From positions 1 to 64,000 of the forward strand of contig NZ_MVDD01000020.1 in assembly GCF_002843315.1 (NCBI RefSeq): a stretch of DNA of 64,000 nucleotides, read 5' to 3'. Each line of letters opens with the position of its first letter. Positions within the stretch are counted from its first letter, which is position 1. The notes beneath the pieces were generated by a model. That model worked only from the letters and a program-made list of their open reading frames with translations, did no database searches and was not told where the DNA came from. A program made the position numbers and the translations under genes. Below, piece after piece: positions 30,882 through 60,241 of this stretch. Source of the stretch: Labilibaculum filiforme. Its GTDB lineage: Bacteria > Bacteroidota > Bacteroidia > Bacteroidales > Marinifilaceae.

Positions 30882-31601
30882 ATGGATGAGATTTTTGGAA
30901 AAATAGGATCGGCTCAAACTCTTAGTCAAAAGATTGAGCGCCGAATAGAAGAGGCTATTCGCCAGAAGAAATTACTGGTTGGAGCTAAACTTCCATCGGA
31001 GCGGGAATTGTGCGAGATGTTTGCGGTGAGTCGAACTGCATTACGTGAAGCTTTGCGTAGATTAAGCGCCCGGGGCCTGATTGAGATCAAAAAGGGAAGT
31101 GGCATGTATGTTAGTGAATTGAAAATCAAAGATGCCATTGATTCTTTAAATTTATATTACGATTTAAGTTTTGATAGTAATTTAATTCCTCAAATTATTG
31201 AAGTAAGACGTGTTTTTGAGCCAGAGATTGCTCGTATGGCGGCCAATAACCGAACCGATAAGGATTTGGCTTTATTGCTTAAGAGTATTTCTGATTTAGA
31301 AGATTGCGATCCAGATAATACGCAAATGGAAGCCGATATCATTAATAAATTTCATTTGAATGTGGCTAAAGCTTCCTGCAATCCGATTGTGATTATTACT
31401 ATGGAGCCAATTTACTCGCTTTTACCACGCATGCGTAATTTAATTTATGCGAACGTAGATGGTGAGAAAGATTTTACGATTAAAGCACATCGAACTATTT
31501 ACGAGGCTATTCGCGATAAAGATGCTGACAAAGCATTTACAGCAATGGTTGGACAAATAAATAGAACCCTTGAGATTTATACACAATATTTGAAAAAATA
31601 A
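30882..31601 (+). CDS. GntR/FadR-type transcriptional regulator (FCD domain)
   Basis: A 239-aa regulator. The N-terminal winged helix (residues about 10-75) has the GntR signature GAKLPSERELCEMFAVSRTALREALRRL, shown in part here, followed by the GSGMYV wing. The C-terminal helical FCD domain (about 95-235) starts LIPQIIEVRRVFEPEIARMAA, with acidic and His residues that bind a ligand or metal in this class. It sits at the head of the peptidoglycan locus, and its terminator is shared with convergent murQ. I infer that it controls that locus and senses an amino sugar, a muropeptide or a derived sugar acid. The palindromes at 33361, 33536 and 51211 are candidate operators. Confidence 0.88.
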   Translation: MDEIFGKIGSAQTLSQKIERRIEEAIRQKKLLVGAKLPSERELCEMFAVSRTALREALRRLSARGLIEIKKGSGMYVSELKIKDAIDSLNLYYDLSFDSNLIPQIIEVRRVFEPEIARMAANNRTDKDLALLLKSISDLEDCDPDNTQMEADIINKFHLNVAKASCNPIVIITMEPIYSLLPRMRNLIYANVDGEKDFTIKAHRTIYEAIRDKDADKAFTAMVGQINRTLEIYTQYLKK

Positions 31602-31620
31602 AAATAGTATTTTCAATAGA

Positions 31621-31656
31621 AAACGGAGATTGACTCGTCAATCTCCGTTTTTTTTA
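31621..31656. terminator. Bidirectional terminator gntR / murQ
   Basis: A perfect 13-bp stem (AAACGGAGATTGA / TCAATCTCCGTTT) with loop CTCG and a T-run lies between the convergent gntR and murQ genes. Confidence 0.92.
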
Positions 31657-31674: not shown

Positions 31675-32505
31675 TTATTTGTAGGCTTCTATTGCTTTTT
31701 TTACTGAGCCATGTTTTAGAAGCAGGCTTTTGGCTACCTCTTTTTCCAGTTTTAATTCTTCCATAATCATTTTGGTTCCGCGTTCTACCAATTTCTTATT
31801 GGTTAGTTGCATGTTCACCATTTTATTTCCTTGAACTCGTCCCAATTTAATCATTAGGCTGGTTGTGATCATGTTTAAAATCATTTTTTGGGCAGTTCCA
31901 GCTTTTAATCTGGTGCTTCCGGTAACAAATTCGGGTCCAACAATTGCCTCCATTACAATTTCTGCAGCTTGCGAAACAGGAGCTCCCGGATTGCAAGTAA
32001 TACAAGCGGTAAGCAATCCATTTTCTCTCGCTTTTTTCACACCACCAATTACATAAGGGGTTGTGCCCGAAGCGGCAATTCCCAATACGGTATCGTTTTG
32101 GTTAAAACCATGTTCCTGAATTTCCTCCCAGGCTTTGTCCCAATCATCCTCTGCCGACTCAACTGCATTTCGCAGCGCTTTATCGCCTCCAGCAATTAAA
32201 CCAATTACAATATTTCCAGGAACACCAAAAGTTGGCGGTAACTCCGAAGCATCCAATACGCCAAGTCTGCCACTAGTGCCCGCGCCTAAATAAAACAACC
32301 GACCACCTGCCTTAATCCGATCAATAAGTAAAGTGACAAATTTCTCTATTTCGGGAATGGTACGATGTACTGCTAAATGAACCTGTCCATCTTCCTGATT
32401 AATTCCGGTAAGCAGTTCGGTAACCGACATCTTTTCTAAATTGGAAAAGTTCGATGGTGATTCTGTTATTGTTTTTGAGGTTTTCTGATTACTCTCTTTG
32501 TTCAT
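31675..32505 (-). CDS. murQ: N-acetylmuramic acid 6-phosphate etherase
   Basis: Cleaves the lactyl ether of MurNAc-6-phosphate to give GlcNAc-6-phosphate and lactate, the key step of muramic acid catabolism. The 276-aa protein has the SIS-fold signature LGAGTSGRLGVLDASELPPTFG (shown in part, residues 73-94) with the catalytic Glu88 in ASELPP, plus GIAASGTTPYV. The length is close to the E. coli enzyme (298 aa). It is 11 bp downstream of the kinase gene on the same strand, so the two act in sequence: kinase makes the 6-phosphate and MurQ removes lactate. Confidence 0.96.
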   Translation of the reverse strand: MNKESNQKTSKTITESPSNFSNLEKMSVTELLTGINQEDGQVHLAVHRTIPEIEKFVTLLIDRIKAGGRLFYLGAGTSGRLGVLDASELPPTFGVPGNIVIGLIAGGDKALRNAVESAEDDWDKAWEEIQEHGFNQNDTVLGIAASGTTPYVIGGVKKARENGLLTACITCNPGAPVSQAAEIVMEAIVGPEFVTGSTRLKAGTAQKMILNMITTSLMIKLGRVQGNKMVNMQLTNKKLVERGTKMIMEELKLEKEVAKSLLLKHGSVKKAIEAYK

Positions 32506-32516: not shown

Positions 32517-33347
32517 TTATTTACTAAGATGGTATTGAATTAATCCTTCCAATGGGCTTTGCTTGATTTTACCAATCCGCAAGCCCATTTCATCAGCCAC
32601 AATTTTTAATTCATTCTTAAAATAAAATGCGATACTCCCAATAAAATGAATGGGTAGGTTCGTATGATTGTTATATTGTTTTACGTTTCGTTCAAAAAAT
32701 TCATAAAAGCTCTTTTTTACCAGTTGTAAAATATAAGGAGATTGAATATTCTCCGAAAGAAAGACGGTAAATTGAGCAAGGAAACGACTGGGAGCTTCCT
32801 CTTTGTATATCTTGTTTATGATATCGGCATATTCCAGATTGTATTTCTGATAGAATGCACTTTTTATTTCTGCAGGAGCAAGATCTTTTAGTATATCAGC
32901 AATTAATTTTTTGCCCATAACGGCTCCGCTACCTTCATCTCCTAAAATATAACCTAGTGGTGAAACGTTGTGTTCAATGTTTTCTCCGTTATATAAACAG
33001 GAGTTCGAACCTGTTCCCATAATGCATGCTATTCCTTTCTCTCTGCCACAAACCGATCGGGCAGCAGCTAAAACATCGCTGTTCACTTCACATGTTGCTT
33101 CGGGAAATATTTGTAGTAAGGAATCTTTAATAATTTGTTTTTTGTCATCAGTAGCGCAGCCAGCTCCGTAAAAAAAGATCTGATGTACCGAGTCAAAATC
33201 GTTCAATGAGCTAATTATTTTAATAATTGAACTTGTATTTTGATGGTAGGGATTGATTCCAAGTGTTTGCCGGCGTTTTATTTCGCCCTCGTTTCCTAAA
33301 AGAACCCAATCGGTTTTGGTCGATCCGCTCTCTGCAATTAATAGCAT
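32517..33347 (-). CDS. BadF/BadG-type N-acetyl amino sugar kinase (MurK-like)
   Basis: A 276-aa ASKHA-fold kinase. It starts MLLIAESGSTKTDWVLLG, where ESGSTKTDW is the phosphate-1 loop, then GCATDDK, GTGSNSCLYNG, and LGDEGSGAVMGKKLI, the typical BadF/GlcNAc kinase signature. Homologues include MurK, which phosphorylates both MurNAc and GlcNAc at O6, and plain GlcNAc kinases; sequence alone does not separate them. The operon with murQ favours the MurNAc/GlcNAc kinase role. The ATG is preceded by a candidate operator at 33361-33372, 14 bp upstream. Confidence 0.85.
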   Translation of the reverse strand: MLLIAESGSTKTDWVLLGNEGEIKRRQTLGINPYHQNTSSIIKIISSLNDFDSVHQIFFYGAGCATDDKKQIIKDSLLQIFPEATCEVNSDVLAAARSVCGREKGIACIMGTGSNSCLYNGENIEHNVSPLGYILGDEGSGAVMGKKLIADILKDLAPAEIKSAFYQKYNLEYADIINKIYKEEAPSRFLAQFTVFLSENIQSPYILQLVKKSFYEFFERNVKQYNNHTNLPIHFIGSIAFYFKNELKIVADEMGLRIGKIKQSPLEGLIQYHLSK

Positions 33348-33360
33348 AGTTTTGTTTTTA

Positions 33361-33372
33361 TAACATGTATGA
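33361..33372. promoter_or_regulatory. Candidate operator, site A (kinase-murQ)
   Basis: TAACATGTATGA, built on the palindrome ACATGT, lies just upstream of the minus-strand kinase-murQ operon. The identical 12-mer occurs at 51211-51222 and a one-base variant at 33536-33547, both also in intergenic DNA of the same locus. Confidence 0.5.
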
Positions 33373-33535
33373 TGAGTGCCAATTAGAAATGAATTTACAA
33401 ATATTTAAATTATAAATTCAATCCGTAAACTTTTATTTATATTCTCTCTGTATCTTCCAACAAGCTTATTGTATTGCTTGTGACATTTTCACCTTACAAA
33501 TATATAAAAATTAAACATTTGCTAAAAGTATTATA

Positions 33536-33547
33536 TAACATGTATTA
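33536..33547. promoter_or_regulatory. Candidate operator, site B (nagB)
   Basis: TAACATGTATTA, differing in one base from site A, lies about 70 bp before the nagB start. Sites A and B thus flank the divergent promoter region between the kinase and nagB. Confidence 0.5.
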
Positions 33548-33617
33548 CCAATTTTGGAAAATTGGCTTTTCTGTTCTATTTTTGATCCGAAAGTAATTTA
33601 AATCAGGAGATAGCAAA

Positions 33618-35600
33618 ATGGAGAATCAGATACTACAATTTAGAGAAGAGCATGATGAAGCCAAGTTGTATTACCAACCTGCCGATGAGTTCGACAGAAC
33701 AGTGAAGACTCGATACGAGAAAATGCCGGCAGATATTTTTTTAACGGTAGAAAAAGCTGCTAAATGGGTGGCTGCAGAAATTGCAAGTGTAATTAAAGAA
33801 AAACAAAAGCTTGGTAAAAAGTGTGTTTTGGGATTGGCAACCGGTGCAACTCCTTTGAGTGTGTATTCGGAATTGATTCGTTTGCATCAGGAGGAAGCTT
33901 TATCGTTTCAGAATGTGATTACTTTTAATTTGGATGAGTATTATCCAATGTTGAAATCAAGTGCGCAGAGTTATAATCATTACATGAATGATGTTTTGTT
34001 TCATCATATCGATATTCCGAAAAATCAAATTCATGTGCCAGATGGCGAGGTAAGTAAAATTACGATTACCGGATATTGCAAGGAGTATGAAAATAGGATT
34101 GATTCTTGTGGCGGATTGGATTTACAAATTCTTGGGATTGGTCGTACAGGTCACATTGGCTTTAATGAACCTGGTTCGCAATTGGATTCGAAAACCCGAT
34201 TGATTATGCTCGATTCTTTAACCAGAAGAGATGCGGCTAAAGATTTTAATGGATTAAATAATGTGCCTAAAGCAGCAATAACCATGGGGGTTGGTACCAT
34301 ATTTAAAGCCAAGCGTGTTATTTTAATGGCTTGGGGCGAAGGAAAAGCTGCTATTGTAAAAAAAGCCTTGGAAGAAAGTCAGTGCGATGCGGTTCCAGCT
34401 AGTTATTTACAGCGCCACGCGGATGTTAAATTTGTTTTGGATGTTCCGGCGGCAAGTGAATTGGCTAGGGTGAAGAATCCTTGGTTGGTTGGAAGTGTGG
34501 AGTGGGATCGGTATTGGATTCGAAAAGCTGCAGTGTGGTTGTGTAATAAACTGCAAAAACCAATTTTGAAGCTGACTAATCGGGATTATAATGATAATGG
34601 CTTGAGTGAATTGCTTGCTTTGTATGGTTCTGCTTACGAGGTAAATATTAAAGTATTTAATGATTTGCAACATACCATTACTGGTTGGCCAGGTGGAAAG
34701 CCAAATGCAGACGACTCTCATCGACCAGAGAGAGCAGAGCCTGCAAGTAAGAAAGTTTTGGTTTTTAGTCCGCATCCTGATGATGATGTAATTTCGATGG
34801 GAGGAACTTTGAGACGATTGGTAGATCAGAAACATGAAGTTCACGTTGCTTATCAAACATCCGGAAATATTGCAGTTGCTGATGATGAGGCGGTAAGATA
34901 TCTTTCTTTTGTAAAAAGTTTTTCAAGAACACACGATACCAATGAGGGGAACCTTCAGTGTGTAATAGAAGATATTCGAAAGTTTTTGTTGGAGAATAAG
35001 GAGCCAGGGGGAATAGATACTGTTGAAGTTCGAAATATGAAAGCTTTAATTCGAAGAGGAGAGGCCAAGGCAGCTTGTCGTTTTGTTGGTGTTCGATCCA
35101 AAAATCTTCATTTTTTAGATATGCCTTTTTACGAAACTGGTGCAGTGAAGAAAAATCCGCTAGGGGAAGAAGATGTTCGAATTTTGGTGAATTTACTTCA
35201 AAGGTTACAGCCACAACAAATTTTTGCTGCAGGCGATTGGTCCGATCCTCATGGAACGCATCGGGTATGTTGGGAAGGAATTTACCAAGCATTAAAAATA
35301 GTAAGAGACGAGGAATGGATGAAGAACTGTTATGTGTGGTTGTATCGCGGAGCTTGGCAGGAGTGGGATTTGGACGAAATTCAAATGGCTGTTCCTGTGA
35401 GTCCGGAAGAGCTTCAGCACAAACGAAATGCAATTTTGCGTCATCAATCGCAAATGGAGAGTGCGCCTTTTATGGGAAATGATTCTCGATTATTCTGGCA
35501 AAGATCTGAAGAAAGAAATAGGGCTACAGCCGATTTGTTTAACAAATTAGGTCTGGCAGAATACGAGGCAATTGAAGCATTTGTCAGGTATATTGTTTAG
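33618..35600 (+). CDS. nagB: Glucosamine-6-phosphate deaminase fused to a PIG-L/LmbE deacetylase domain
   Basis: A 660-aa two-domain protein. Residues about 30-310 are NagB: LGLATGATPL (71-80), FNLDEYY (103-109) with the catalytic acid, and GIGRTGHIGFNEPGS. It converts glucosamine-6-phosphate to fructose-6-phosphate and ammonia. Residues about 375-650 are a PIG-L-type deacetylase: SPHPDDDVISMGGTL with the Zn-binding HPDDD at 386-390, and DWSDPHGTHRV carrying the later His. This long form is known across Bacteroidia. No nagA is in the window; the second domain could deacetylate GlcNAc-6-phosphate, which would make the fusion bifunctional, but that is inference. It is transcribed divergently from the kinase-murQ pair. 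Confidence 0.92.
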   Translation: MENQILQFREEHDEAKLYYQPADEFDRTVKTRYEKMPADIFLTVEKAAKWVAAEIASVIKEKQKLGKKCVLGLATGATPLSVYSELIRLHQEEALSFQNVITFNLDEYYPMLKSSAQSYNHYMNDVLFHHIDIPKNQIHVPDGEVSKITITGYCKEYENRIDSCGGLDLQILGIGRTGHIGFNEPGSQLDSKTRLIMLDSLTRRDAAKDFNGLNNVPKAAITMGVGTIFKAKRVILMAWGEGKAAIVKKALEESQCDAVPASYLQRHADVKFVLDVPAASELARVKNPWLVGSVEWDRYWIRKAAVWLCNKLQKPILKLTNRDYNDNGLSELLALYGSAYEVNIKVFNDLQHTITGWPGGKPNADDSHRPERAEPASKKVLVFSPHPDDDVISMGGTLRRLVDQKHEVHVAYQTSGNIAVADDEAVRYLSFVKSFSRTHDTNEGNLQCVIEDIRKFLLENKEPGGIDTVEVRNMKALIRRGEAKAACRFVGVRSKNLHFLDMPFYETGAVKKNPLGEEDVRILVNLLQRLQPQQIFAAGDWSDPHGTHRVCWEGIYQALKIVRDEEWMKNCYVWLYRGAWQEWDLDEIQMAVPVSPEELQHKRNAILRHQSQMESAPFMGNDSRLFWQRSEERNRATADLFNKLGLAEYEAIEAFVRYIV

Positions 35601-35678: not shown

Positions 35679-38600
35679 ATGATTTTCATGTCTTTATCTT
35701 TTCGAAACATTCGCTTTTTCAAGCTCCTTTTTGTCATCTTCTTTTTGATGTTTTCTTCCTATCATACGAAGGCAATCCGGAAATCAGATCGGTTAAAACG
35801 GAAAGCCGACAAAGCTGCGCAATATTTTGTGGAGGAAGCATCTAAGGATTTTGTGTACAGTTTTCAATACGATAGTTTGCAGATCGATTCAGAGCAAAAG
35901 CAGATTGTATTGTTTATGAATTCGGTATTTTCTTACATCCCTTTTCGTCCGGAATCTGTTTTGAAATATAAGAATGATTTCAAGGAAGATTTGGGTCGGA
36001 AATTTAAAGATTATTCGATTCGAATGGAAAGTATGGGGCAGGAAATTAGTGACTTGATTCCTAATTTTTACCGGGGAGGAATGGTGGCGTTGGATAAGGG
36101 GCGACTAAATAAAAATGCAGAGGTAGCACATGCATTGGTACGAAACCTAAATGCAGGAATTGCTCCGGAATTTGGATTAAAGAACAAGCACATTGCACTT
36201 TGGCATTCGCATGGTTGGTATTACGAGAATACTTTAGATAGATGGGAATGGCAAAGAGCACGAGTTTTTTGCACCGTTGAAGATTTATGGACCATGGAAT
36301 TTGTTGTGCCATATATTGCTCCAATGCTCGAAAATTCTGGAGCTAATGTTTTGTTTCCTCGTGAAAGAGATATTCAGAAAAACGAGGTGATTGTAGATGC
36401 GGATTGGTCATCGAAAGGTTCGGAGTGTATTGTAGATGCTTCGGTTTGGGGACTTAATTCTCAAGCTGGCTTCGCAAATAAATATCCATTTTATTTGGAG
36501 GGAGAAAATCCATTCGAATTGGGACATAGTTATCAGGTGGAGGCAGGGACTAATGAATCTGCTATTGCGAAATACCTTCCTTATTTTTCTGAGAAAGGAG
36601 AATATGCAGTTTACGTTTCCTATTCGGATGATGAGGATAATGTGAATGACGCACACTATACTGTATATCATACTGGAGGCAAAACAGAGTTTGTGGTGAA
36701 CCAAAGTATGGGAGGTAAAACCTGGATTTATTTGGGAACTTTCCTTTTTGATAAGGGGAGAAATCCTGAAAAAGGAAGACTGGAATTGTCGAACGAAAGT
36801 AAGGAGGTGGGAAAGTGGATTTCGGCCGACGCGGTTCGATTTGGTGGAGGAATGGGAAATATTGCTCGTGGCAATCCCGACGAACTGAAAGCCCTGAAAA
36901 AGCAAAGAGCTGAGTTTGGTTTTAAAATGGATACAGCTATTTGGCAAAAATATACCAGTAATCGTCCCAGATATCAGGAGGCGGCACGTTACTACCTTCA
37001 GTATGCAGGCATGCCCGATTCATTGGTGTACAGCATAAATAAAGATTACGAGGCAGATTACAGCAATAGGGGAAAAGATGCGGCTAAGTTTCAGAAACGA
37101 GAAGTTGGTAAAACCGATTACAAAGACGATTACATGAGTCGTGGCGAATGGGTAGATTATTTGATCGGCGCTCCATCTGGTCCTACAAAAAATCCAACGG
37201 TTAAAGGTTTGGGAATACCTGTTGATATGGCTTTGGCATTCCATACCGATGCCGGCTTTACTCCGAATGACTCCATTATTGGAAGTCTGGCGATTTATTC
37301 GACTACGCGGGATAATGATTGTTTTCCAAACGGACAATCGAAATGGGCAAGTCGCGATTTAACCGATATTATTCAGTCGCAGGTGGTGGAAGATATTCGG
37401 AGCAAATACGAGCCAAAATGGACTAGGAGAGGAATGTGGAACAAGCAATATTCCGAAGCTTATCGTCCCAAAGTGCCAACCATGCTATCGGAACTCATGT
37501 CGCATCAGAATTTTGCAGATATGTATCAGGCGATGGATCCGAAGTTTAAATTCGATGTTAGCAGAGCCTATTACAAAGGGATTTTAAAGTTTCTTTCTTC
37601 TCAGGATGGAAGAGATTATGTGGTGCAACCTTTGCCGGTTGATCATTTTCAAATCAGGGAAACCGAAAAAGGAATTTTATTGGCATGGAAGCCGGTTGCT
37701 GATGAATTAGAAGCTACAGCAAATGCTACTTCTTATAAAGTTTATACAAGAATTGAAGAGGAGGGATTTGATAATGGAATAGAAAGCTTCGAGCCCGAAT
37801 ATAGAATTGAAAACTGTAAACCTGGTGTGATATATAGTTTTAAGGTGACGGCATTGAATAAAGGCGGAGAAAGCTTTGATTCGGAAATATTGTCCTATTG
37901 CAAAGCTAAAAATGGGAAAAAACCTGTTTTAATTGTAAATGGTTTTGATCGGTTGACTGCTCCTCAGGGGTTTGATGATGGAAAGTTAGCTGGTTTTAAA
38001 AGTTCGGAAGACGAAGGGGTAGCCTACAAAAGAAATATTGCTTATGTTGGAGATCAATACGATTTTGATAGGAAATCGGTTTGGCTGGATGATGATGCAT
38101 CGGGTCATGGAAGCTCTTATGCCGATCAGGAGGAAAGAATAATTCCGGGCAACAGTTTCGATTATCCTTTTGTGCACGGATTAGCGGTTCGCGATAATGG
38201 CTTTGGTTTTGTATCCATGAGTGATGAGGCTTTTGAGGAGCTGAATTGGGAAGCGCAAGAGTTCTCTGTTTTAGATCTTATTTTTGGAGAGGAAAAAACA
38301 AGCAAAAGAATGTATGGCAAGGAGAACAAAGATTTTACTATTTATACGCCCGAAATGAGGGAGGCAATTCGTAAGTATTTGCTCGATAAAAATGCGAAAT
38401 TAATTCTTTCGGGAGCTTATGTTGGCACAGATTTAGAACTTTGTGGCGATAGTTTGGCAAAATCTTTTGCCGAGAATGAATTGCATTATCAGTTTAGAAC
38501 CAATTATGGGAGTAAATTGGGAAAAGTATCGCATACGAATGAGGTGAGAAACAATTTCACAGGAGAATATCAGTTTGTAACTGGATATTCATCGGTAATA

Positions 38601-38807
38601 TATAAGGTAGAAGCACCGGATGCGATTGAACCTTTTGGCGAGAATGCAAAAGTGCTTTTACGATATTCGGGAAATAATAAAAGTGCAGGTGTTTTGTACA
38701 ATGGGAAATATCAGTCGGTAATTTTAGGATTTCCATTGGAAACGCTGGAAACAAAAGCGTACCGAAATGAATTGATGAAACAGATACTTCAATTTTTTAA
38801 TCAGTAA
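35679..38807 (+). CDS. Exported amidase_3-like protein with golvesin-C-type and FnIII domains
   Basis: A 1042-aa exported protein. It has a hydrophobic N-terminal signal (FKLLFVIFFLMFSSYHTKA) and often goes under the label xanthan lyase. Reading the motifs, I see a zinc amidase core split by an insert: ALWHSHGW (H176/H178), CTVEDLW (E201), LAFHTDAGF (H522) and a catalytic-type Glu in LSELMSH (E605). This matches the H-E-H plus E pattern of N-acetylmuramoyl-L-alanine amidases. The insert at about 230-410 resembles the golvesin C-terminal domain. An FnIII-like domain (about 655-745) and a C-terminal about 290-residue globular region follow. The peptidoglycan neighbourhood supports amidase activity. 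Either ATG at 35679 or 35688 is possible. Confidence 0.7.
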   Translation: MIFMSLSFRNIRFFKLLFVIFFLMFSSYHTKAIRKSDRLKRKADKAAQYFVEEASKDFVYSFQYDSLQIDSEQKQIVLFMNSVFSYIPFRPESVLKYKNDFKEDLGRKFKDYSIRMESMGQEISDLIPNFYRGGMVALDKGRLNKNAEVAHALVRNLNAGIAPEFGLKNKHIALWHSHGWYYENTLDRWEWQRARVFCTVEDLWTMEFVVPYIAPMLENSGANVLFPRERDIQKNEVIVDADWSSKGSECIVDASVWGLNSQAGFANKYPFYLEGENPFELGHSYQVEAGTNESAIAKYLPYFSEKGEYAVYVSYSDDEDNVNDAHYTVYHTGGKTEFVVNQSMGGKTWIYLGTFLFDKGRNPEKGRLELSNESKEVGKWISADAVRFGGGMGNIARGNPDELKALKKQRAEFGFKMDTAIWQKYTSNRPRYQEAARYYLQYAGMPDSLVYSINKDYEADYSNRGKDAAKFQKREVGKTDYKDDYMSRGEWVDYLIGAPSGPTKNPTVKGLGIPVDMALAFHTDAGFTPNDSIIGSLAIYSTTRDNDCFPNGQSKWASRDLTDIIQSQVVEDIRSKYEPKWTRRGMWNKQYSEAYRPKVPTMLSELMSHQNFADMYQAMDPKFKFDVSRAYYKGILKFLSSQDGRDYVVQPLPVDHFQIRETEKGILLAWKPVADELEATANATSYKVYTRIEEEGFDNGIESFEPEYRIENCKPGVIYSFKVTALNKGGESFDSEILSYCKAKNGKKPVLIVNGFDRLTAPQGFDDGKLAGFKSSEDEGVAYKRNIAYVGDQYDFDRKSVWLDDDASGHGSSYADQEERIIPGNSFDYPFVHGLAVRDNGFGFVSMSDEAFEELNWEAQEFSVLDLIFGEEKTSKRMYGKENKDFTIYTPEMREAIRKYLLDKNAKLILSGAYVGTDLELCGDSLAKSFAENELHYQFRTNYGSKLGKVSHTNEVRNNFTGEYQFVTGYSSVIYKVEAPDAIEPFGENAKVLLRYSGNNKSAGVLYNGKYQSVILGFPLETLETKAYRNELMKQILQFFNQ

Positions 38808-40453: not shown

Positions 40454-40472
40454 CGTGGTTAAGTTAACATCT

Positions 40473-51210: not shown

Positions 51211-51222
51211 TAACATGTATGA
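51211..51222. promoter_or_regulatory. Candidate operator, site C (namZ/GHL10)
   Basis: TAACATGTATGA, identical over 12 bases to site A at 33361-33372, placed just after a -7 box where a bound repressor would block transcription. Confidence 0.5.
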
Positions 51223-51546
51223 CAACTTATCAATCTTTCTAAAATGATTATGGTTGGTAACATTATTTTTTGTTCGCTTTTTGCTTTCTTTTTATTGCTT
51301 ATATGCCATTAATGGAAAGTAAAACAAATTTAGCCTTTTTAATCGAAACAGCTGAGTTTACAATCGGCGGTGATACGTTAGGGTGACAATTACAGCTAGA
51401 AATTGGTAGAAAATTAAGGAAGTTTATTTTACGTTGGATGGAGAGGATGATTTAGGGAATTAAAATAGCTCGCTTAACTATAGCTGATAGAGAATATCGA
51501 ACTTTAGAGGTTGAACTTATTAAATGAGAGTAACACATAGCTAAGG

Positions 51547-53022
51547 ATGAGTAAAAAAGGAATCATAGGAATTTTGTTTGTTCTGATTGCATTTGGTGCA
51601 ATGGCAAAGAAAAAGTCGCCTGCAAGAGAGATGCGCGCAGTTTGGGTGGCAACAGTCGATAATATTGATTGGCCCTCAAAGCCAGGTCTTTCTGTCGAGG
51701 AGCAAAAGAAAGAAATGATTTCTCTTTTGGAGCAGCATCAAAAGAATGGAATGAATACCATCGTATTTCAGATTCGACCAGCTACCGATGCGTTTTACCA
51801 ATCACCTTACGAGCCTTGGTCACAGTGGTTAAGTGGCGAGCAAGGAGTTGCTCCCGATCCGCTTTACGATCCCCTTCAATTTATAGTTGAAGAGTGTCAT
51901 AAAAGAGCAATGGAACTTCATGCCTGGATGAATCCATACCGAGCGGTTTGTAATTATCAAAGGGCAAAAACAGATCCTAATCACATTACAAATCAGCATC
52001 CAGAATGGTTCTTAACCTACGGAAAACATAAGTATTTTAATCCTGGACTACAGGAAACTCGGAATTACGTGTCTAAAATAGTTGGAGATGTTGTTCGTCG
52101 GTATGATGTAGATGCCATTCATTTCGATGATTATTTTTATCCCTACAAAATAGCGGGAGAGCCATTTCCCGATTCTTTAAGTTTCACTAAAAATGGTGGG
52201 GCGTTTTACCCGAACCAAATTGATGATTGGCGCAGGAATAATGTCAATCAGGTGATCCAACAAATTAACGATACCATTAAATCGATAAAACCATGGATGC
52301 CTTTCGGAATTTCTCCTTTCGGAGTTTGGCGCAACAAGGATATGGATAAATCCGGATCGAAAACAAAAGCTGGTCAAACCAATTACGACGATTTGTATGC
52401 CGATGTTTTGTTGTGGTTAAAAAACGATTGGATCGATTATGTAGCGCCACAAATATATTGGCACATTGGTAAAAAAGTTGCCGACTATAAAGTAATTGCA
52501 AAATGGTGGCGAAAAAATTCTTTTGGAAAGCCTTGCTATATCGGACATGGGGTTTATCGATTAGATTCTCTTTCAAAAGATAAGGAGTGGCAGAATAGGG
52601 ATCAAATTATCAGACAAATAAAAATGAATCGTCGTGGGAAGGGAATAAATGGAAGTATGTTTTTCTGTTCGAAGAATTTTACCGAAAACCGATTAGGAAT
52701 TAATGATGCTTTACAAGCGGAAGTGTATTCATATCCTGCGTTGCATTTAGAAAATACCAACTATCAACAAGCTAGCTTGAAAGCGCCAAAGGTGAAAGGG
52801 AAGAAGGGGGGGGTAACTTGGAATTCTGTTGAGGATGCTGTTTACTATATAGTCTATCAGTCGTCTAAAAAATCCCTTAAAAAAGGAAAGGTGTTTTGTA
52901 TTACAACTTCCTTAGGGCTAGAAATACCTAATCAGGAGGAAAGTTTGTTCTATTCTGTGAAAGCAATAGATAGAGGGCATTTTGAAAGTGCAGCTAGTAG
53001 TTGGATTAGAGTTGGACAATAA
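51547..53022 (+). CDS. GHL10 family glycosidase (DigH relative)
   Basis: A 491-aa secreted protein (short hydrophobic N-terminus IIGILFVLIAFGAMA). REMRAVWVATVDNIDWPSK opens the glycosyl-hydrolase-like 10 domain; conserved blocks include FQIRPATDAFY, LHAWMNPYRA, DVDAIHFDDYFYPY and APQIYWHIG. The C-terminal about 95 residues look like an FnIII-type domain. The E. coli homologue DigH cleaves denuded peptidoglycan glycans. With the NamZ-like gene in divergent position and NlpC/P60 next, the same role is likely here. Confidence 0.88.
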   Translation: MSKKGIIGILFVLIAFGAMAKKKSPAREMRAVWVATVDNIDWPSKPGLSVEEQKKEMISLLEQHQKNGMNTIVFQIRPATDAFYQSPYEPWSQWLSGEQGVAPDPLYDPLQFIVEECHKRAMELHAWMNPYRAVCNYQRAKTDPNHITNQHPEWFLTYGKHKYFNPGLQETRNYVSKIVGDVVRRYDVDAIHFDDYFYPYKIAGEPFPDSLSFTKNGGAFYPNQIDDWRRNNVNQVIQQINDTIKSIKPWMPFGISPFGVWRNKDMDKSGSKTKAGQTNYDDLYADVLLWLKNDWIDYVAPQIYWHIGKKVADYKVIAKWWRKNSFGKPCYIGHGVYRLDSLSKDKEWQNRDQIIRQIKMNRRGKGINGSMFFCSKNFTENRLGINDALQAEVYSYPALHLENTNYQQASLKAPKVKGKKGGVTWNSVEDAVYYIVYQSSKKSLKKGKVFCITTSLGLEIPNQEESLFYSVKAIDRGHFESAASSWIRVGQ

Positions 53023-53092: not shown

Positions 53093-53162
53093 CGATTATT
53101 GGAAATCAATGGATGTGTTTAAATTTGGAATCATGTAAGATGTAATACCAATTAATGTAAAA

Positions 53163-54338
53163 ATGAGAATTACAATTTATTTTATGATTATTTCCCTTGG
53201 ATTTGCCTGTAGCAATAGTCATAAATTGTTGCAGGAAGCAAATCAAATTTCTCAAGCTATAAAGTTGCAGTTTGCTCCGGATAGTCGTGAGGCAATTTTT
53301 AGTCCTAATTTTTCGATGAATCGAAATAATGAATTAGTGGTTAGGGGAGAAACATCTTTACAGGAAGCCAAATTAGAATTGTTGGCTACTTTGGAGGCTT
53401 TGGAGATTCATTTGGTTGATAGTTTGACTCTTTTACCAGAGAAAAAACTTGGCGATAAAAATTGGGGACTCATCAATTTAAGTGTTGTGAACTTGAGGGC
53501 GAATCCAAAACATTCGGCCGAGCTTGTTTCTCAAGCCATAATGGGTACTCCGGTTAAATTGATGAAAGAAGAGCAGGGCTGGTATCAAATTCAGACGCCA
53601 GACAAATATATAGCTTGGTTGGATAAAGGGGCAATGGCTTTAAAAACAAAACAGGAAATGGAGGCATGGAGAAATACTGAAAGAGTTATTTTTCTTCCCG
53701 ATTTCGAGGTAGTTAAAGATCCTGCAAAAAAGGAAGTGGTTACCGATTTAGTTGCCGGTGCAATTCTTAAAATTGAAAAGGAAAACAAAACAAGTTATGA
53801 TCTGAGCTTGCCGGATGGAAGAAAGATTCAAGTCGAGAAATCGAATTGTGAGCGATTTGCAGATTGGAAAAATCAGGAGCTAAACGATAGGTCTCTCTTA
53901 AGTGATAAAGCAAAAGAATTTATTGGTCGTCCATATTTATGGGGAGGAACTTCGGCTAAGGGAGTCGATTGTAGTGGGTTTGTGAAGGCTGTTTATTTTA
54001 TGAATGGAATCATTTTAGCCCGCGATGCATCCTTACAATTTCTTCATGGCGATACAATTTCTCCAGAGCAGGGGTTTTTAGAATTAACCGAGGGAGATTT
54101 GGTTTTTTTCGGAAGAGCCGAAACGGCTAAGAATGAAATGAAAGTTACTCATGTGGGAATGTATATGAATAATGGAGAATATATTCATTCTTCGGGCAGG
54201 GTTCGCATTAATAGTTTCGATCCCGAAGCCGAAAATTATAATGATTACAGGTCGATTACCTGGTTAGGTGGCCGACGAGTTTTAAATAGAATTGGAGAAC
54301 CAGGAATTAGTAAGGTGTCCGAACACGAATGGTATTAA
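53163..54338 (+). CDS. NlpC/P60 lipoprotein with SH3-like domains (YkfC type)
   Basis: A 391-aa lipoprotein (MRITIYFMIISLGFAC, Cys16). Two SH3-like segments are visible (SVVNLRANPKHSAELVSQ at about 108; another at about 185-250). The C-terminal NlpC/P60 domain has RPYLWGGTSAKGVDCSGF with Cys270 and VTHVGMYM with His330. The layout equals YkfC-type gamma-D-glutamyl-L-diamino acid endopeptidases, which release L-Ala-D-Glu from stem peptides. It is followed closely by a dipeptide epimerase for exactly that product, which supports the assignment. Confidence 0.9.
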   Translation: MRITIYFMIISLGFACSNSHKLLQEANQISQAIKLQFAPDSREAIFSPNFSMNRNNELVVRGETSLQEAKLELLATLEALEIHLVDSLTLLPEKKLGDKNWGLINLSVVNLRANPKHSAELVSQAIMGTPVKLMKEEQGWYQIQTPDKYIAWLDKGAMALKTKQEMEAWRNTERVIFLPDFEVVKDPAKKEVVTDLVAGAILKIEKENKTSYDLSLPDGRKIQVEKSNCERFADWKNQELNDRSLLSDKAKEFIGRPYLWGGTSAKGVDCSGFVKAVYFMNGIILARDASLQFLHGDTISPEQGFLELTEGDLVFFGRAETAKNEMKVTHVGMYMNNGEYIHSSGRVRINSFDPEAENYNDYRSITWLGGRRVLNRIGEPGISKVSEHEWY

Positions 54339-54352
54339 GAAAAGAAGTAAGA

Positions 54353-55492
54353 ATGACAATAAATAGAAGAAAATTTTTAGGAAATACTGGATGGTTAGCT
54401 GGTGCCGCATTTTTACTTCCTGCAATTAATTCTTGTGGAGTAAACGGAAAAAGCAAATCGGGACACATAGGGAAAGGTCTGAAGCTTAGTTTCGAAGCTT
54501 ATGAGCTGCAACTGAAACACGTATTTACCATTGCATCCTTTTCTAGAACAACCACGCCCGTGATGTTGGTGAAAATTGAGTGGGATGGAGTGGTTGGTTA
54601 CGGTGAAGCATCCATGCCACCGTATTTGGGTGAATCTCACGAAACGGCTGCGAAATTTCTTAATGCATTGGATTTAAAACAGTTCTTGGACCCTTTTCGA
54701 CTGAATGAAATACTGAGCTATGTAGATACGGTAGCCGAAGGAAACTGTGCAGCCAAGGCTTCGGTTGATATTGCTTTACACGATTTAATTGGAAAGTTGA
54801 TGGAAAAGCCCTGGTTTAAAATCTGGGGTTATAATCAGGAAAATACTCCGCTTACTACATTTACCATTGGTATGGATAAGCCCGATGTGGTAATAGAAAA
54901 AGTAAAGGAAGCAGCTCCTTATAAAATGTTAAAAGTAAAAATTGGCCGTGGTACCGATGAGGAGATGATTTCTACAATTCGCAAAATTACTAAGGTTCCT
55001 TTGTGTGTTGATGTGAATCAGGGTTGGAAAGATAAACACGAGGCTTTAGATAAAATTCATTGGCTAAAAGAACAAGGAGTTGTGTTTGTTGAGCAACCAA
55101 TGGATAAGAATAATTTGGAAGATATGGCTTGGTTGACTCAACATAGTCCCCTGCCAACTATTGCAGATGAGGCTATTCAACGTTTAGATGATGTGGCGAA
55201 AATGCATGGAGTTTATTCGGGTATTAATATAAAATTGATGAAGTGCACAGGAATGCGCGAAGCTCACAAAATGATGAATGTAGCCCGTTCATTGGAAATG
55301 AAAGTGATGATAGGATGCATGACGGAAACGTCTTGTGGTGTTAGTGCGGCAGCTCAACTGTCGCCTATGGTTGATTGGGCCGATTTGGATGGAAATTTAT
55401 TAATATCAAATGATCCTTTTAAAGGAATTGAAATTCTCAACGGGAAAGTAATCTTGCCCAATCGTGCGGGAATTGGAGTCATAAAAATATAA
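54353..55492 (+). CDS. L-Ala-D/L-Glu-type dipeptide epimerase with Tat signal
   Basis: A 379-aa enolase-superfamily protein. The N-terminus has a twin-arginine motif (NRRKFLG, R5-R6), a hydrophobic region and a lipobox-like INSC (Cys28), predicting Tat export, perhaps with lipid anchoring. The core shows the KxK pair K194/K196 (KVKIG), metal ligands D220 (CVDVNQGW), E247 (VEQPM) and D272 (IADEA), and K294 on the opposite face (NIKLMK). This is the complete dipeptide-epimerase set. Epimerases of this type are usually cytosolic, so export is notable. It starts 14 bp after the NlpC/P60 stop and ends 40 bp before susC. Confidence 0.9.
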   Translation: MTINRRKFLGNTGWLAGAAFLLPAINSCGVNGKSKSGHIGKGLKLSFEAYELQLKHVFTIASFSRTTTPVMLVKIEWDGVVGYGEASMPPYLGESHETAAKFLNALDLKQFLDPFRLNEILSYVDTVAEGNCAAKASVDIALHDLIGKLMEKPWFKIWGYNQENTPLTTFTIGMDKPDVVIEKVKEAAPYKMLKVKIGRGTDEEMISTIRKITKVPLCVDVNQGWKDKHEALDKIHWLKEQGVVFVEQPMDKNNLEDMAWLTQHSPLPTIADEAIQRLDDVAKMHGVYSGINIKLMKCTGMREAHKMMNVARSLEMKVMIGCMTETSCGVSAAAQLSPMVDWADLDGNLLISNDPFKGIEILNGKVILPNRAGIGVIKI

Positions 55493-55532: not shown

Positions 55533-58500
55533 ATGAGAAAAATTGCATGCTTTACGTTAATCATGCTTCTTGGCTGGCAGGTGTCCTGGGCACAGGATTT
55601 GCTGGTTAAAGGTGTGGTTACCGGTGCAGAAGACGGGTTAACTATCCCGGGAGTTTCGGTTGTAGTAAAAGGTACAACCAACGGAACAACTACCGATTTT
55701 GATGGAAAATACGAAATCAAACTTGGAGCGAATGCCATTCTGGTGTTCTCTTATATCGGAATGAAACCATTTGAGTTTACTGTTGGATCTCAATCGGTTG
55801 TTAATGTGGCATTGGAAACTGATAATTTCGCGATGGACGAAGTTGTAGTTGTTGGTTACGGTGTACAAAAGAAAAGTGATATTACTGGTTCTGTAGCAAG
55901 TATTAGTGCTAAGGATTTGGAAGATCAGCCAGTATCCAATGCAGCAGCTCTCCTACAGGGACGTGCAGCGGGTGTTATGGTTACACAAACTTCGGGTGCG
56001 CCTGGTGCTGGTTTATCCGTTCGAGTTCGTGGAACAGGTACTGTGAATAACTCATCGCCTCTTTATGTGGTGGATGGTATCTTTTTGGACGATATTTCCA
56101 GCTTAAACCCATCTGACTTTAAAAGTCTTGAGGTGTTGAAAGATGCTTCTGCAACGGCTATTTATGGTTCAAGAGGTGCGAATGGTGTTGTTTTAATTAC
56201 CACCAAAACAGGTAATACTAAGGATGTAAAAGTTCAATTAGAATTAATGACTGGACTTCAAAGTGTTTGGAACGAACCAGATCTAATGAATACAGCAGAT
56301 TGGTTGGCAACTTATAATGCTGCACAAACAAATGCCGCTGCTTTTACAGGTTCAAGCGCTTACAAGCCGCTAATTCTTCAATCGCCATCCGATAATACAG
56401 GAAACACAACAGATTGGTTCGACGAGCTTACCCGTGTTGGTAAAATCTATAAAACGAATGTTACCTTATCAAAAGGAGATGAATCTTCAAATACTCTATT
56501 TAGTGCAGGTTATTTACAAAACGAAGGTGTTGTTTTAAATTCTAAATACGAGAGAATTAATGCTCGTTTGAATAACAATTACAATATTGGTTCAAAAGTT
56601 AAAGCAGGTATTAATGTTTCATTATCACATACCAATACCGATCAGGTGAATGGAAATGCTATTAATGGTATTTTAACTCTTGCTCAAAGAATGGATCCAA
56701 TCACTCCTGTTTATCAGGAGTCTGGAGAGTATGCTTCAACACCATATTCCGACTTGGCGAATCCTGTTGCTATTTTGAATAGAGACGTTAGGGAGAATTC
56801 TGCTCTTTTAATTCTAGCAAATTCTTATTTGCAAGTGGAGCCAATTAAAAATTTGATTATTAAATCATCGGTAAGTTTAAATATTTCAAGATCTAAAGAG
56901 AAGACTTATTTGCCTTCATATGATTATGGAAATGAAAAAAACATTACCAATAGTTTGTCGAAAACAACTAGGGAGTTTAATGGTTTCTTAAGTGAGAATA
57001 CGGTGTCTTACAATATGAATATTGAAGACCATAATATTAGCTTACTTGCTGGTTTTACAGCAGAAAAAAATAAGTCTGAATATTTAGGAGCTTCTCGTAA
57101 TAACATTCCAAATGATAATGAGGAGTTACAATATATTTCTGCTTCTACTGATTTAGAAAGTACAAATGCCTGGAATTCAGGCGTTGATACCAGAATGTAT
57201 TCTTATTTAGGAAGAGTAAATTATAATTATGCGGACACGTACTTCTTAACAGCGTCTTTCCGTCGGGATGGTTCTTCTGTTTTCGGTCCTGATAAGCGAT
57301 TTGGTAACTTTCCTTCCATGTCTTTGGGGTGGAAATTAAGAAATGAAAAATTCATGGATTTTTTACCGGAAGATGTGGTGAATAGAATTAAAGTAAGAGC
57401 TGGTTGGGGACGTGTTGGTAATGCTAAAATTGATCCGTATTCATTTGCCTCTACTGTTCAAAGTAGCGATGCTTTGTTAGAGTATAGCTATGTTTTTGGT
57501 GATAAAGAACAAGCAGGAGCAGCTTCAGTTAAAATGGCCAATTTGAAAGTGCAATGGGAAACTGTAGAATCTACAAACTTTGGACTAGACTTGGCATTTT
57601 TGAATGATCAATTGACATTCTCTGCTGATTATTTCAAAAAAGAAACCAAAGACATGTTGGTTCAGGTTCCAATACCTCAATATGCTGGATACGATGGAAG
57701 TCCATATGTAAATGCAGGTACGGTGGAGAACAAAGGTTTTGAATTAAATCTTGGTTACAGAGGAAAAATTGGAAATGACTTAAAATATTCAGTAAGTGTA
57801 AATGCTTCTCATGTAGAAAACGAAGTGACCAGTCTTGGTGGCGGAGTACCTATTTGGAGTGGTAGCGTAAGTTTGGTTGGTAATGTTACAAGAACTGCTG
57901 AAGGATTTCCTATTGGAGCATTTTATGGATATGAGGTTGATGGTGTATTCCAAACAAATGCTGAAGTTGCTTCAAGTGCGCAATCAAGTGAGCCAATTGG
58001 TGCTGGCGATTTTAGATTTAAAGATCAGTGGACAGATAAAGACAACGATGGTGTGAAGGAAGCTCCTGATGGAGTCATAAATGGGGATGATCGTGTTCAG
58101 ATTGGGGATCCAAATCCGGATTTGTTTTATGGTGTTAATATCGATTTGGCCTATAAAGGTTTTGATTTGTCTATGTTTTTTCAAGGTGTGACAGGGAATG
58201 ATATTTTTAACGGTTTTAAATATTATAACTACGCGGATATCAAAAGATTTGGCTTGGCTTCCGATTATAAAAATCATTGGACAGCGCAAAATAAATCGAA
58301 TGAAATGTTTGGATTAAATGCTTCTACTGTTGAGAAAAATTTGAGAGCTTCCGATTTTTACGTGGAAGATGGTTCGTATTTACGTTTGAAAAACATTCAG
58401 TTAGGTTACACTTTTAAAGATCTTACTCCTTGGATGTCCAATCTTCGAGTTTATTTCTCTGGACAAAATGTATTTACAATTACTGATTATTCTGGTTTGG

Positions 58501-58613
58501 ATCCTGAAATTGGTGCTTCTAGTTCTACTAGTCCATCATTAACTCAAGGAATCGATTATGGAACTTATCCACAAGCAAGAATTTTTTCAATTGGAGCTAA
58601 TTTAACTTTCTAA
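55533..58613 (+). CDS. SusC/RagA-type TonB-linked outer-membrane transporter
   Basis: A 1026-aa receptor with signal peptide (MRKIACFTLIMLLGWQVSWA), a carboxypeptidase-D-regulatory-like domain at about 25-105, the TonB-box-like DEVVVVGYG, the plug with IRGxxS-like VRVRGTGTVNNSSPLYVVDG, and a barrel ending FSIGANLTF. This is the SusC layout. Together with the SusD-like lipoprotein starting at its last base, it forms an importer. Because it follows the NlpC/P60 and epimerase genes with short spacing, I infer it imports peptidoglycan fragments or peptides. Confidence 0.95.
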   Translation: MRKIACFTLIMLLGWQVSWAQDLLVKGVVTGAEDGLTIPGVSVVVKGTTNGTTTDFDGKYEIKLGANAILVFSYIGMKPFEFTVGSQSVVNVALETDNFAMDEVVVVGYGVQKKSDITGSVASISAKDLEDQPVSNAAALLQGRAAGVMVTQTSGAPGAGLSVRVRGTGTVNNSSPLYVVDGIFLDDISSLNPSDFKSLEVLKDASATAIYGSRGANGVVLITTKTGNTKDVKVQLELMTGLQSVWNEPDLMNTADWLATYNAAQTNAAAFTGSSAYKPLILQSPSDNTGNTTDWFDELTRVGKIYKTNVTLSKGDESSNTLFSAGYLQNEGVVLNSKYERINARLNNNYNIGSKVKAGINVSLSHTNTDQVNGNAINGILTLAQRMDPITPVYQESGEYASTPYSDLANPVAILNRDVRENSALLILANSYLQVEPIKNLIIKSSVSLNISRSKEKTYLPSYDYGNEKNITNSLSKTTREFNGFLSENTVSYNMNIEDHNISLLAGFTAEKNKSEYLGASRNNIPNDNEELQYISASTDLESTNAWNSGVDTRMYSYLGRVNYNYADTYFLTASFRRDGSSVFGPDKRFGNFPSMSLGWKLRNEKFMDFLPEDVVNRIKVRAGWGRVGNAKIDPYSFASTVQSSDALLEYSYVFGDKEQAGAASVKMANLKVQWETVESTNFGLDLAFLNDQLTFSADYFKKETKDMLVQVPIPQYAGYDGSPYVNAGTVENKGFELNLGYRGKIGNDLKYSVSVNASHVENEVTSLGGGVPIWSGSVSLVGNVTRTAEGFPIGAFYGYEVDGVFQTNAEVASSAQSSEPIGAGDFRFKDQWTDKDNDGVKEAPDGVINGDDRVQIGDPNPDLFYGVNIDLAYKGFDLSMFFQGVTGNDIFNGFKYYNYADIKRFGLASDYKNHWTAQNKSNEMFGLNASTVEKNLRASDFYVEDGSYLRLKNIQLGYTFKDLTPWMSNLRVYFSGQNVFTITDYSGLDPEIGASSSTSPSLTQGIDYGTYPQARIFSIGANLTF

Positions 58614-60241
58614 TGTTGATGAAAATGAAGAAAATAAGAAATATAATATTAGCAGGGCTTTTGATATTCTCATTGGGAGCCTGTGATGAAGACTATTTGG
58701 ATACCGTAAAAATCGGGGAACAAACATCTGGTAGTTTTTATTCGAACGATGCCGAGCTTATAAAAGCGGCGAATGCCTGTTATGCTCCAATGTGGGAGTA
58801 TCACTACAATTGGGGAAGAACTTCTCTAAATAATTCGACTACTGATGATGCAGTAGATAGAGAGGATTTGCCTTTACGTCAATTTACTTTCGATGCTACG
58901 GGTTTTCTTTTCACTTACAATTACCGCTATAATTATAGGGGAATATTAATTGCAAATCAATTGTTGGCGAATGTAGAAGGAAAAGATATTTCTGGAGTGA
59001 AAGATAAAGATTTGCAGGATCGTGTAGTTGGGGAAGCTAAATTTATGAGAGCTTATTACTACTACGATTTGGTTAAGAATTATGGTGGTGTTCCTTTAGT
59101 AACAGTTCCTTTGTTGGGAGGTGATTTGAATCAAACTCGTGCAACCTCTGCAGCGGTTTATGCTCAAATTGAAACAGATTTAAACGATGCTGTTGCAGCA
59201 CTTCCTTTAAAATCGGTATACGCTGCTTCTGGTGAGTTAGGTAGAGCAACAAAGGGTGCAGCTTTAGGTTTGTTGGTTAAGGTTTGTGCATCGCAAGCAA
59301 GTTCAGGTTTTGCTACTCAAGATTTTTACAATGAAAACAAATGGGAGGATGCTAAAACTTATGCAGAACAGTTATTTGCTTTAGGTACTTACGATTTGTA
59401 CCAAGGGGCTTATCATGATCTATTTTCTGAAGCCGAAGAGAATAATGAAGAATCAATTTTTGAGGTTCAATTCTACGATTCTCCACTAGATGACGGTGCT
59501 TATACGAATAACGGTAATTTTACCACTTTCTTAAATATGCCTTGGTTAGGAGCAGCCGATCCTTATGGTAGATATCAGGCTACTTACGATTTGTATTTAG
59601 AGTTTGAGAATGGGGATCCTCGTCGGGATGCTTCATTAATTAATTCGCTTCAATATGCCGATCAATGGATTTTGGAAGGTGAAACTCCTGGTGTAGTTGC
59701 TGAAGACTTGACTGGTTTTAGTAACTACAAACATTACCTATCTAAGGAGCAATATTTAAATTTGGGTAATTTCAGAAATTCACCGGTTAATGAAAGAATC
59801 ATTCGTTTGTCAGATATCTATTTGCTATATGCTGAGGCTTGCTTTCATACCAGCGATGAGGGAACTTCTAGAATATATTTAAATAAAGTTCGCGAACGTG
59901 CTCGTCAAGGAAACGCTTCTATTTTAGCCGACATTACCGTTTCAGGAACAGCCTTGTTAGATGCTATTTATCATGAGCGACGCGTAGAGCTTTGCGGAGA
60001 AGGTCACAGGTTGCACGATCTGATTAGAACTGGAAGGTTAGAGAAAGAGCTTAAGACAGACGGTTATAAGGTAAAGGCTAGCATTACCCGCGATGGTCTT
60101 GGTGGATATGTGGTAGCCGATTCAGGTGAACCAATTTTTAAGGCAACAAACTTAAAAATGCCAAAAAATATTTTCTTTCCTCTTCCACAAAGTGAAGTGG
60201 ATAATTCAGGAGGACTAGTTGAGCAAAATCCTGGATATTAA
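58613..60241 (+). CDS. SusD/RagB-type surface lipoprotein
   Basis: A 542-aa lipoprotein (signal NIILAGLLIFSLGAC), helical, with SusD signatures AKFMRAYYYYDLVKNYGGVPLV, a TPR-like region, RLSDIYLLYAEACF and YHERRVELCGEGHRLHDLIR. The ATG overlaps the susC stop by one base; ATG at 58619 is also possible. It covers the SusC barrel as a lid and binds the substrate. A strong terminator follows, which ends the locus. Confidence 0.95.
   Translation: MLMKMKKIRNIILAGLLIFSLGACDEDYLDTVKIGEQTSGSFYSNDAELIKAANACYAPMWEYHYNWGRTSLNNSTTDDAVDREDLPLRQFTFDATGFLFTYNYRYNYRGILIANQLLANVEGKDISGVKDKDLQDRVVGEAKFMRAYYYYDLVKNYGGVPLVTVPLLGGDLNQTRATSAAVYAQIETDLNDAVAALPLKSVYAASGELGRATKGAALGLLVKVCASQASSGFATQDFYNENKWEDAKTYAEQLFALGTYDLYQGAYHDLFSEAEENNEESIFEVQFYDSPLDDGAYTNNGNFTTFLNMPWLGAADPYGRYQATYDLYLEFENGDPRRDASLINSLQYADQWILEGETPGVVAEDLTGFSNYKHYLSKEQYLNLGNFRNSPVNERIIRLSDIYLLYAEACFHTSDEGTSRIYLNKVRERARQGNASILADITVSGTALLDAIYHERRVELCGEGHRLHDLIRTGRLEKELKTDGYKVKASITRDGLGGYVVADSGEPIFKATNLKMPKNIFFPLPQSEVDNSGGLVEQNPGY

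Follow-up and report, generated by a model that had tools for sequence, protein, structure and literature searches.

We analysed a 64,000-nucleotide stretch of the Labilibaculum filiforme genome (positions 1 to 64,000 of contig NZ_MVDD01000020.1, hereafter the window), which harbours a cluster of genes for the breakdown and use of peptidoglycan and N-acetylmuramic acid (MurNAc) and, within it, a SusC/SusD (SusCD) importer pair. This pair occupies a slot behind two conserved enzyme genes, and different SusCD types have been exchanged in the slot among relatives. Open reading frames (ORFs) were present in the 5.2-Mb genome wherever a preliminary description had placed a gene, and Pfam/NCBIfam scanning of the 27 ORFs between 23339 and 62824 supported nearly all of the gene classes given there. 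The slot region comprises an NlpC/P60 endopeptidase with SH3 domains and a lipoprotein-like N-terminus (53163-54338, +), a predicted L-Ala-D/L-Glu epimerase with a Tat-like N-terminus (54329-55492, +), SusC (55533-58613, +) and SusD (58613-60241, +; both assigned by Pfam and designated type A). NlpC and the epimerase overlap by 10 nt, the epimerase and SusC are 40 nt apart, and SusC and SusD overlap by 1 nt. Given this tight spacing on a single strand, the four genes were read as one operon.

The order of the genes in the cluster is kept across several genera, indicating that the cluster is not a chance assembly. It starts with a NanR-like GntR-FCD regulator, a candidate repressor of the set (30882-31601, +; Pfam GntR and FCD; top NCBIfam match the NanR subfamily, 140 bits, below the cut-off of 260). 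Next are MurQ, a MurNAc-6-phosphate etherase (31675-32505, -; NCBIfam TIGR00274, 310 bits, cut-off 302), and a MurK-like amino-sugar kinase (32517-33347, -; Pfam BcrAD_BadFG), whose solved relatives include one named 'Putative novel MurNAc kinase' and others named N-acetylglucosamine kinase. A NagB-type deaminase fused to a PIG-L deacetylase (33618-35600, +; PRK02122, 1047 bits, cut-off 384) precedes an exported, xanthan-lyase-like protein with Golvesin_C, Amidase_3 and fn3 matches in Pfam (35679-38807, +). The latter had been described as an amidase_3-like exoprotein, but the Amidase_3 match is weak (23.4 bits, cut-off 27) and Golvesin_C is the clear domain. A family 2 glycosyltransferase (38835-40295, +; Pfam), missing from the preliminary description, is followed by a DUF1460/AmiA-like amidase with a lipoprotein-like N-terminus (40774-41652, +; Pfam; solved relatives 2p1g and 4h4j). 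Pfam/NCBIfam matches further assigned a DUF4922 protein (41846-42853, +), a SpoIID/LytB protein (43186-44646, +), an AmpG-type major facilitator superfamily permease (44775-46082, +; 184 bits, below the NCBIfam cut-off of 350), an SGNH/GDSL hydrolase (46072-46602, +), a NagX-like membrane protein (46566-47723, +; 161 bits, NCBIfam cut-off 480), a NamZ-type exo-muramidase (49852-51126, -) and a GHL10 (DigH-like) glycosidase (51547-53022, +). The end of GHL10 is separated from the NlpC operon by 140 nt.

The epimerase scores below every NCBIfam cut-off (DgcA 199.9 bits, cut-off 400; epimerase models 127 bits, cut-offs 500 and 343). Its residues 51-387 align to the solved 3iji (E 4e-148), and the segments LKVKIG, VDVNQG, VEQPM, IADEA and IKLMKC are kept in comparison with solved dipeptide epimerases; these presumably provide the KxK motif, the metal ligands and the second lysine of the enolase superfamily. 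The N-terminus carries RRKFLG followed by a cysteine, which we take to be a Tat-lipoprotein pattern. Compared with the Bacteroides epimerase 3iji/3ijl/3ijq (presumably BT1313), the window protein has an extra Tat-like extension of about 50 residues before the solved region. Among 80 epimerase loci (L126-L205), NlpC/P60 was directly upstream in 28/36 loci with a Tat-like RR in the epimerase N-terminus and in 5/44 without it, as counted with a crude pattern on ORFs taken from the first start codon. The window NlpC resembles the solved NlpC/P60 proteins 3npf and 3pvq/4r0k (E 8e-61) and shares the DCSG and HVG segments with 3npf and 3pvq.

We surveyed 56 genomes of the family, 16 of which had the epimerase at E<=1e-90, in 17 places. 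Two places were not used, one running off its contig (G001) and one holding another kind of epimerase, with neither NlpC nor SusC next to it (G011). At all of the 15 remaining places (14 genomes, window included), NlpC was directly upstream of the epimerase and SusC 39-51 nt downstream. The preliminary description had made its reading depend on the SusCD pair staying with the cell-wall genes in relatives, and it did so at 15/15 readable slots. SusD orthologues with 92% identity were found in Labilibaculum euxinus and in a Marinifilaceae metagenome genome, and type A orthologues with at least 73% identity in 11 named loci (L003-L013). The slot epimerase was upstream in nine of these 11 (L003-L006, L008-L011 and L013), at a distance of 3-5 kb in L008-L010, while L007 had none in the 8.6 kb examined. 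Among L008 (2772-12832), L009 and L012, which come from Carboxylicivirga and a Bacteroidales metagenome-assembled genome, a second epimerase (30-34%) follows the type A SusD in L008 and L012. Between the first epimerase and SusC lie a D-lactate-dehydrogenase-like gene in L008 and M23 and C39 peptidases in L009. That the Carboxylicivirga operon includes these extra genes counts in favour of a role in peptidoglycan scavenging.

Three types of SusCD were found in the slot, with SusC proteins 25-50% identical between types. Compared with the window, type A SusC is 84-95% and SusD 79-92% identical (G006, G007, G008, G012, G489 and copy 2 of G028), type B 47-48% and 36-38% (G003, G004 and G488), and type C 27-28% and 21-22% (G002, G014, G016, G017 and copy 1 of G028). 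The flanking proteins, among them a metallophosphatase (MPP; 60487-61689, +) that stays in place when SusCD is exchanged, do not track this split. Thus, in G004 vs. G006, NamZ (97%), GHL10 (92%), NlpC (94%), the epimerase (97%) and MPP (97%) are nearly the same, and U371 likewise falls within this range of 92-97%, whereas SusC (48%) and SusD (38%) differ. The pattern is reversed across genera (copy 1 of G028 vs. G014: SusC 93%, NlpC 64%, MPP 69%). Genus monophyly was not rejected for NlpC plus epimerase (p-AU 0.129) and was rejected for SusCD (p-AU 1e-38); these are quick trees, and as the SusCD alignment joins non-orthologous pairs, the p-AU values restate the pattern rather than test it subtly. 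The pair had been described as the locus's own importer. A SusCD pair is indeed always present in the slot within the family, but the one in the window is one of three exchanged types and not a fixed partner.

DNA identity running from the epimerase into susC extends about 190 bp (C vs. A) or about 680 bp (B vs. A) and returns either towards the end of susD or in the gap that follows. The SusC signal peptide is nearly constant across types, and the common N-terminus comprises the first 27 residues or so in type C and about 115 in type B, the rest being unrelated or distant. Genome G028 (L118:937-17047) harbours a C module and an A module in tandem, both of them including NlpC and epimerase, which suggests gain by recombination across the module genes and later loss of one copy; such a tandem is a possible intermediate of cassette exchange. 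In G002, GHL10 (71-74%) and NlpC (69-77%) are more distant from those of genus-mates than the epimerase or MPP, and the transfer in type C may therefore have included more than SusCD. Bacteroides fragilis has SusC/SusD shufflons, in which variants are joined to a constant 5' end, as in this slot. Here, however, the variants sit in different species, and a search of the genome turned up no further copy of the susC 5' end: the 281-nt susC start matches full length at the slot only, with 12 further partial matches in the window genome covering its conserved inner part, and a within-genome shufflon was therefore rejected.

Type C is accompanied by a distinct set of genes. In 5/5 type C genomes, the gene after GHL10 encodes an SSF symporter; AnmK and a PBP4B-like hydrolase come next, their order differing between genomes. 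The label GH3 for this hydrolase was discarded, as Pfam gives a beta-lactamase-family protein in three genomes; in G002 the NCBIfam match is PBP4B-like at 140 bits (cut-off 385). A protein with a NAGPA (phosphodiester glycosidase) domain follows SusD in four of the five (not in G002); counting G028 (L118:8325-9506), such proteins neighbour type C-like SusCD pairs in two families of the order (the other locus being L186:12838-14895). AnmK was detected in 7/56 family genomes, namely the five with type C, G001, whose slot could not be read, and G026, in which type A was seen, and in 0/9 genomes with only A or B; the window genome had no match. In G026 the AnmK contig ends in NlpC and the SusCD contig ends in the epimerase, so this genome may hold a tandem of C and A. 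The association between AnmK and type C gave a Fisher p of 0.0005 without G026 and of 0.002 if G026 is counted as A with AnmK, values that are optimistic owing to the relatedness of the genomes. Since AnmK acts on anhydro-MurNAc, products of lytic transglycosylases are the probable cargo of type C, and other fragments that of types A and B. Across 295 genomes of the order, scored with two candidates per genome, the epimerase was directly upstream of a type C SusC only in G400 (30 loci examined).

Four operator-like sites, all on the forward strand, connect the SusCD operon with the MurNAc genes. They lie upstream of MurK-MurQ (33359-33376; exact RTAACATGTATGA match), upstream of the NagB-deacetylase (33534-33551; ASATGTAWTACCAATT match), in the divergent region of NamZ and GHL10 (51209-51226; exact genome match) and upstream of the NlpC-epimerase-SusCD operon (53134-53151). 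Intergenic alignments revealed blocks that are better conserved than the sequence around them. These lie before MurK and NagB (6 genomes), between NamZ and either GHL10 or the transglutaminase-like lipoprotein gene LP477 (10 genomes in two sets, 5 + 5) and before NlpC (8 genomes of types A/B and 4 places of type C). In the window these blocks are, in the order MurK, NagB, NamZ/GHL10 and NlpC, TATAACATGTATGATGAG, TATAACATGTATTACCAA, TGTAACATGTATGACAAC and TGTAAGATGTAATACCAA. The NlpC site is located 28-35 nt before NlpC at 16/16 family places examined (G001 left out) and recurs with two changes at two other loci, Carboxylicivirga L008 and strain A049 (the NlpC start of A049 is uncertain). ASATGTAWTACCAATT with at most one mismatch has 2 matches in 5.2 Mb, before NagB and NlpC only (reversed control, 1), and exact RTAACATGTATGA has 2 genome matches, both in the cluster. 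The argument is carried by conservation, placement and the rarity of the exact forms, not by scores.

A related block, TTGTCATACAAGTTACC, was found elsewhere in the genome between lactate-permease-like and D-lactate-dehydrogenase-like genes (G000:C9:23160-23172, L309). It is exact in 11/14 genomes; G003 and G488 have an altered form, and G014 lacks it. As MurQ releases D-lactate, this site fits one regulon; no relative of the window GntR was found within 20 kb around the lactate locus. The genome has three FCD regulators including that of the window, and the neighbours of the other two look, from their N-termini only, like kdgK/kdgA and a SusC. We infer that the window GntR binds the operator-like sites.

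Other features of the window lie beside these genes. A ThrE pair (48284-49582) was not in the preliminary description, nor were MPP, which flanks the slot without clearly being part of the system, and a protein of no known type, both 3' of SusD. The gap between the glycosyltransferase and AmiA genes contains two near-identical direct repeats (116 nt, 97%) and a 42-nt pair (40303-40660) and is shorter in three aligned relatives. A second NamZ gene is present in the same genome (G000:C14:91668-92261). A remnant of LP477 (59% over 44 residues) lies at 51261-51392, and the gene is whole in 8/14 relatives examined, in one of them split over two stretches. LP477 was rejected as a marker of types A/B, being whole in the type C genome G014 and a remnant in G000 (A) and G003 (B).

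The closest known system is the ampG-murTKQ operon of Tannerella forsythia. The window shares with it, as a cluster, a xanthan-lyase-like protein, a glycosyltransferase, SpoIID/LytB, AmpG, NamZ/YbbC (we take the T. forsythia YbbC to be NamZ), MurK and MurQ. By contrast, no SusCD, NlpC/P60, epimerase or GntR is named in the portions of the T. forsythia reports available to us, and the window has all of them. In T. forsythia, Tanf_08345-08385 encode a xanthan lyase, two glycosyltransferases, LytB, AmpG, YbbC, MurT, MurK and MurQ on one transcript (PMC5388701, PMC7670621), and use of muropeptides and MurNAc has been shown for this operon (PMC5388701, PMC7670621, PMC5790795). The regulator given in those portions is the hybrid two-component GppX, in contrast to the GntR-FCD of the window cluster. 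They also include MurT, assigned to the sodium symporter superfamily in one place and to the major facilitator superfamily in another (PMC5790795); no MurT gene was recognised in the scanned window stretch, and no second transporter near MurK/MurQ in its Pfam/NCBIfam scan. The SSF symporter, present in type C relatives only, is only a lead as a MurT counterpart. The salvage core is therefore already known, as the T. forsythia operon plus extra genes, and the new part is the importer slot, its exchange, the AnmK link and the shared sites.

The window also resembles the polysaccharide utilisation loci (PULs) of Bacteroidota in its adjacent SusCD, in an operon with degradative enzymes, and in gathering enzymes for one polymer in a single locus (NamZ, GHL10, NlpC/P60, DUF1460 and the epimerase). 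It differs in that these enzymes target peptidoglycan peptides and amino sugars and in its GntR-FCD regulator; none of the usual PUL regulators (hybrid two-component systems, SusR, extracytoplasmic function sigma/anti-sigma factors) was among the Pfam matches of the scanned ORFs. As judged from its genes, the locus would work like a PUL for peptidoglycan fragments. The preliminary description had proposed a system of this kind, of which it knew no earlier description. The SusCD linkage and the shared sites support it, but the core is known from T. forsythia (PMC5388701). No publication on a peptidoglycan SusCD was found among the best matches in the open-access literature.

With moderate confidence, we favour a GntR-controlled regulon of marine Bacteroidales for scavenging peptidoglycan and MurNAc, with its own exchangeable TonB-dependent SusCD importer. 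Gene content, synteny, the exchange and the shared sites were observed directly. In the scheme that we propose for substrate, enzyme activities, cellular location, regulator identity and direction of regulation, exported NamZ, GHL10 and the amidase-like exoprotein would cut foreign or shed peptidoglycan, and SusCD would carry the fragments into the periplasm. There the DUF1460 amidase and the NlpC/P60 lipoprotein would shorten the stem peptide. The exported epimerase would convert L-Ala-D-Glu to L-Ala-L-Glu, usable by ordinary peptidases. AmpG would move sugar fragments inward, and MurK, MurQ and the NagB-deacetylase would turn MurNAc into a glycolytic sugar phosphate and D-lactate. GntR-FCD is the probable repressor, which would act at the shared sites and release the set once a MurNAc-derived signal is present. 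SusCD would be a plug-in part, the upstream site, NlpC, the epimerase and the start of SusC being kept in relatives. That an exchanged SusCD cassette was grafted on this constant operator, enzyme pair and SusC signal peptide, with its type matched to fragment chemistry and type C paired with anhydro-MurNAc by way of AnmK, is a tentative proposal, to which we give slightly less than an even chance.

Several observations weigh against the scavenging regulon. In a wider sample of 80 loci (the best 54 of 101 places, down to 46% identity, and 26/28 of a second list, the other two being the window and a locus already taken), NlpC was directly upstream of the epimerase in 33, and SusC directly downstream in only two (G060 and G400). 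SusC or SusD was within 5 kb of the epimerase in 6/80 and within the stretch in 10/80; the labels came from profiles built on the same loci, so distant SusC/SusD may be missed. The operator-like site was not found in G400 or G060. Allowing one mismatch, RTAACATGTATGA has 6 genome matches (3 in the cluster) vs. 14 for the reversed control, and TAACATGTATGA with two mismatches has 15 window matches vs. 8.5 expected, with 1/100 shuffles as high; these patterns were chosen after seeing the sites, from which the scoring matrix was likewise built. In strain A049, SusCD is followed by GH92 and GH2 glycosidases. The nearest solved SusC to type A is 8aa4, presumably a dextran importer, which scores well above the peptide importer RagA; an AlphaFold2 model of SusD (10 aligned sequences, mean pLDDT 55.7) was too poor for fold comparison. 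A phylum-wide rule that the epimerase goes with SusCD was rejected on the counts of 2/80 and 6/80, and the link between SusC and the epimerase is a feature of the lineage. As this link is rare outside the lineage, the importer was not part of the ancestral pathway.

All types might import peptidoglycan fragments, the exchange being a response to phages or bacteriocins with SusC as their receptor rather than to substrate. This fits the change of barrel and SusD while promoter region, periplasmic enzymes and SusC signal peptide stay, and the lack of a within-genome donor copy of the susC 5' end. However, AnmK, the SSF symporter and the PBP4B-like hydrolase of type C suggest a matching change of substrate, and we consider this explanation unlikely overall, although it can still hold for A vs. 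B.

Alternatively, the SusCD pairs may import other glycans and merely use a recombination-prone spot after a conserved epimerase, the peptidoglycan genes being independent. The match to 8aa4, the glycosidases of A049, the three unrelated or distant occupants of the slot and the large number of SusCD pairs in these genomes favour such a role. Nevertheless, SusC stands close behind the epimerase at every readable slot, the NlpC operon retains the site that it has in common with MurNAc genes, type C occurs together with AnmK, and at type A/B family loci the interval from the pair to the peptidoglycan genes showed no glycan-degrading genes of a different kind, which makes import of other glycans quite doubtful. 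It is improbable that the cluster serves only to recycle peptidoglycan of the cell itself, with SusCD recapturing leaked fragments: other bacteria use AmpG, the DUF1460 amidase and the epimerase for recycling, but the window genome lacks a match to AnmK, the enzyme for anhydro-MurNAc from its own lytic transglycosylases, and the exported-looking NamZ and GHL10 and the catabolic NagB fusion would point to feeding.

Bacterial cell walls make up a large share of marine and gut organic matter, and no assignment for the passage of peptidoglycan fragments across the Bacteroidota outer membrane was found in the open-access literature searched. The shared sites make the regulon prediction testable through one DNA-binding protein, and the three SusCD types are a natural experiment in which the same site and enzymes are combined with different importers. 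If the proposal of an exchanged, chemistry-matched cassette holds, no SusCD system would have been assigned to peptidoglycan before this one, as far as the searched literature goes.

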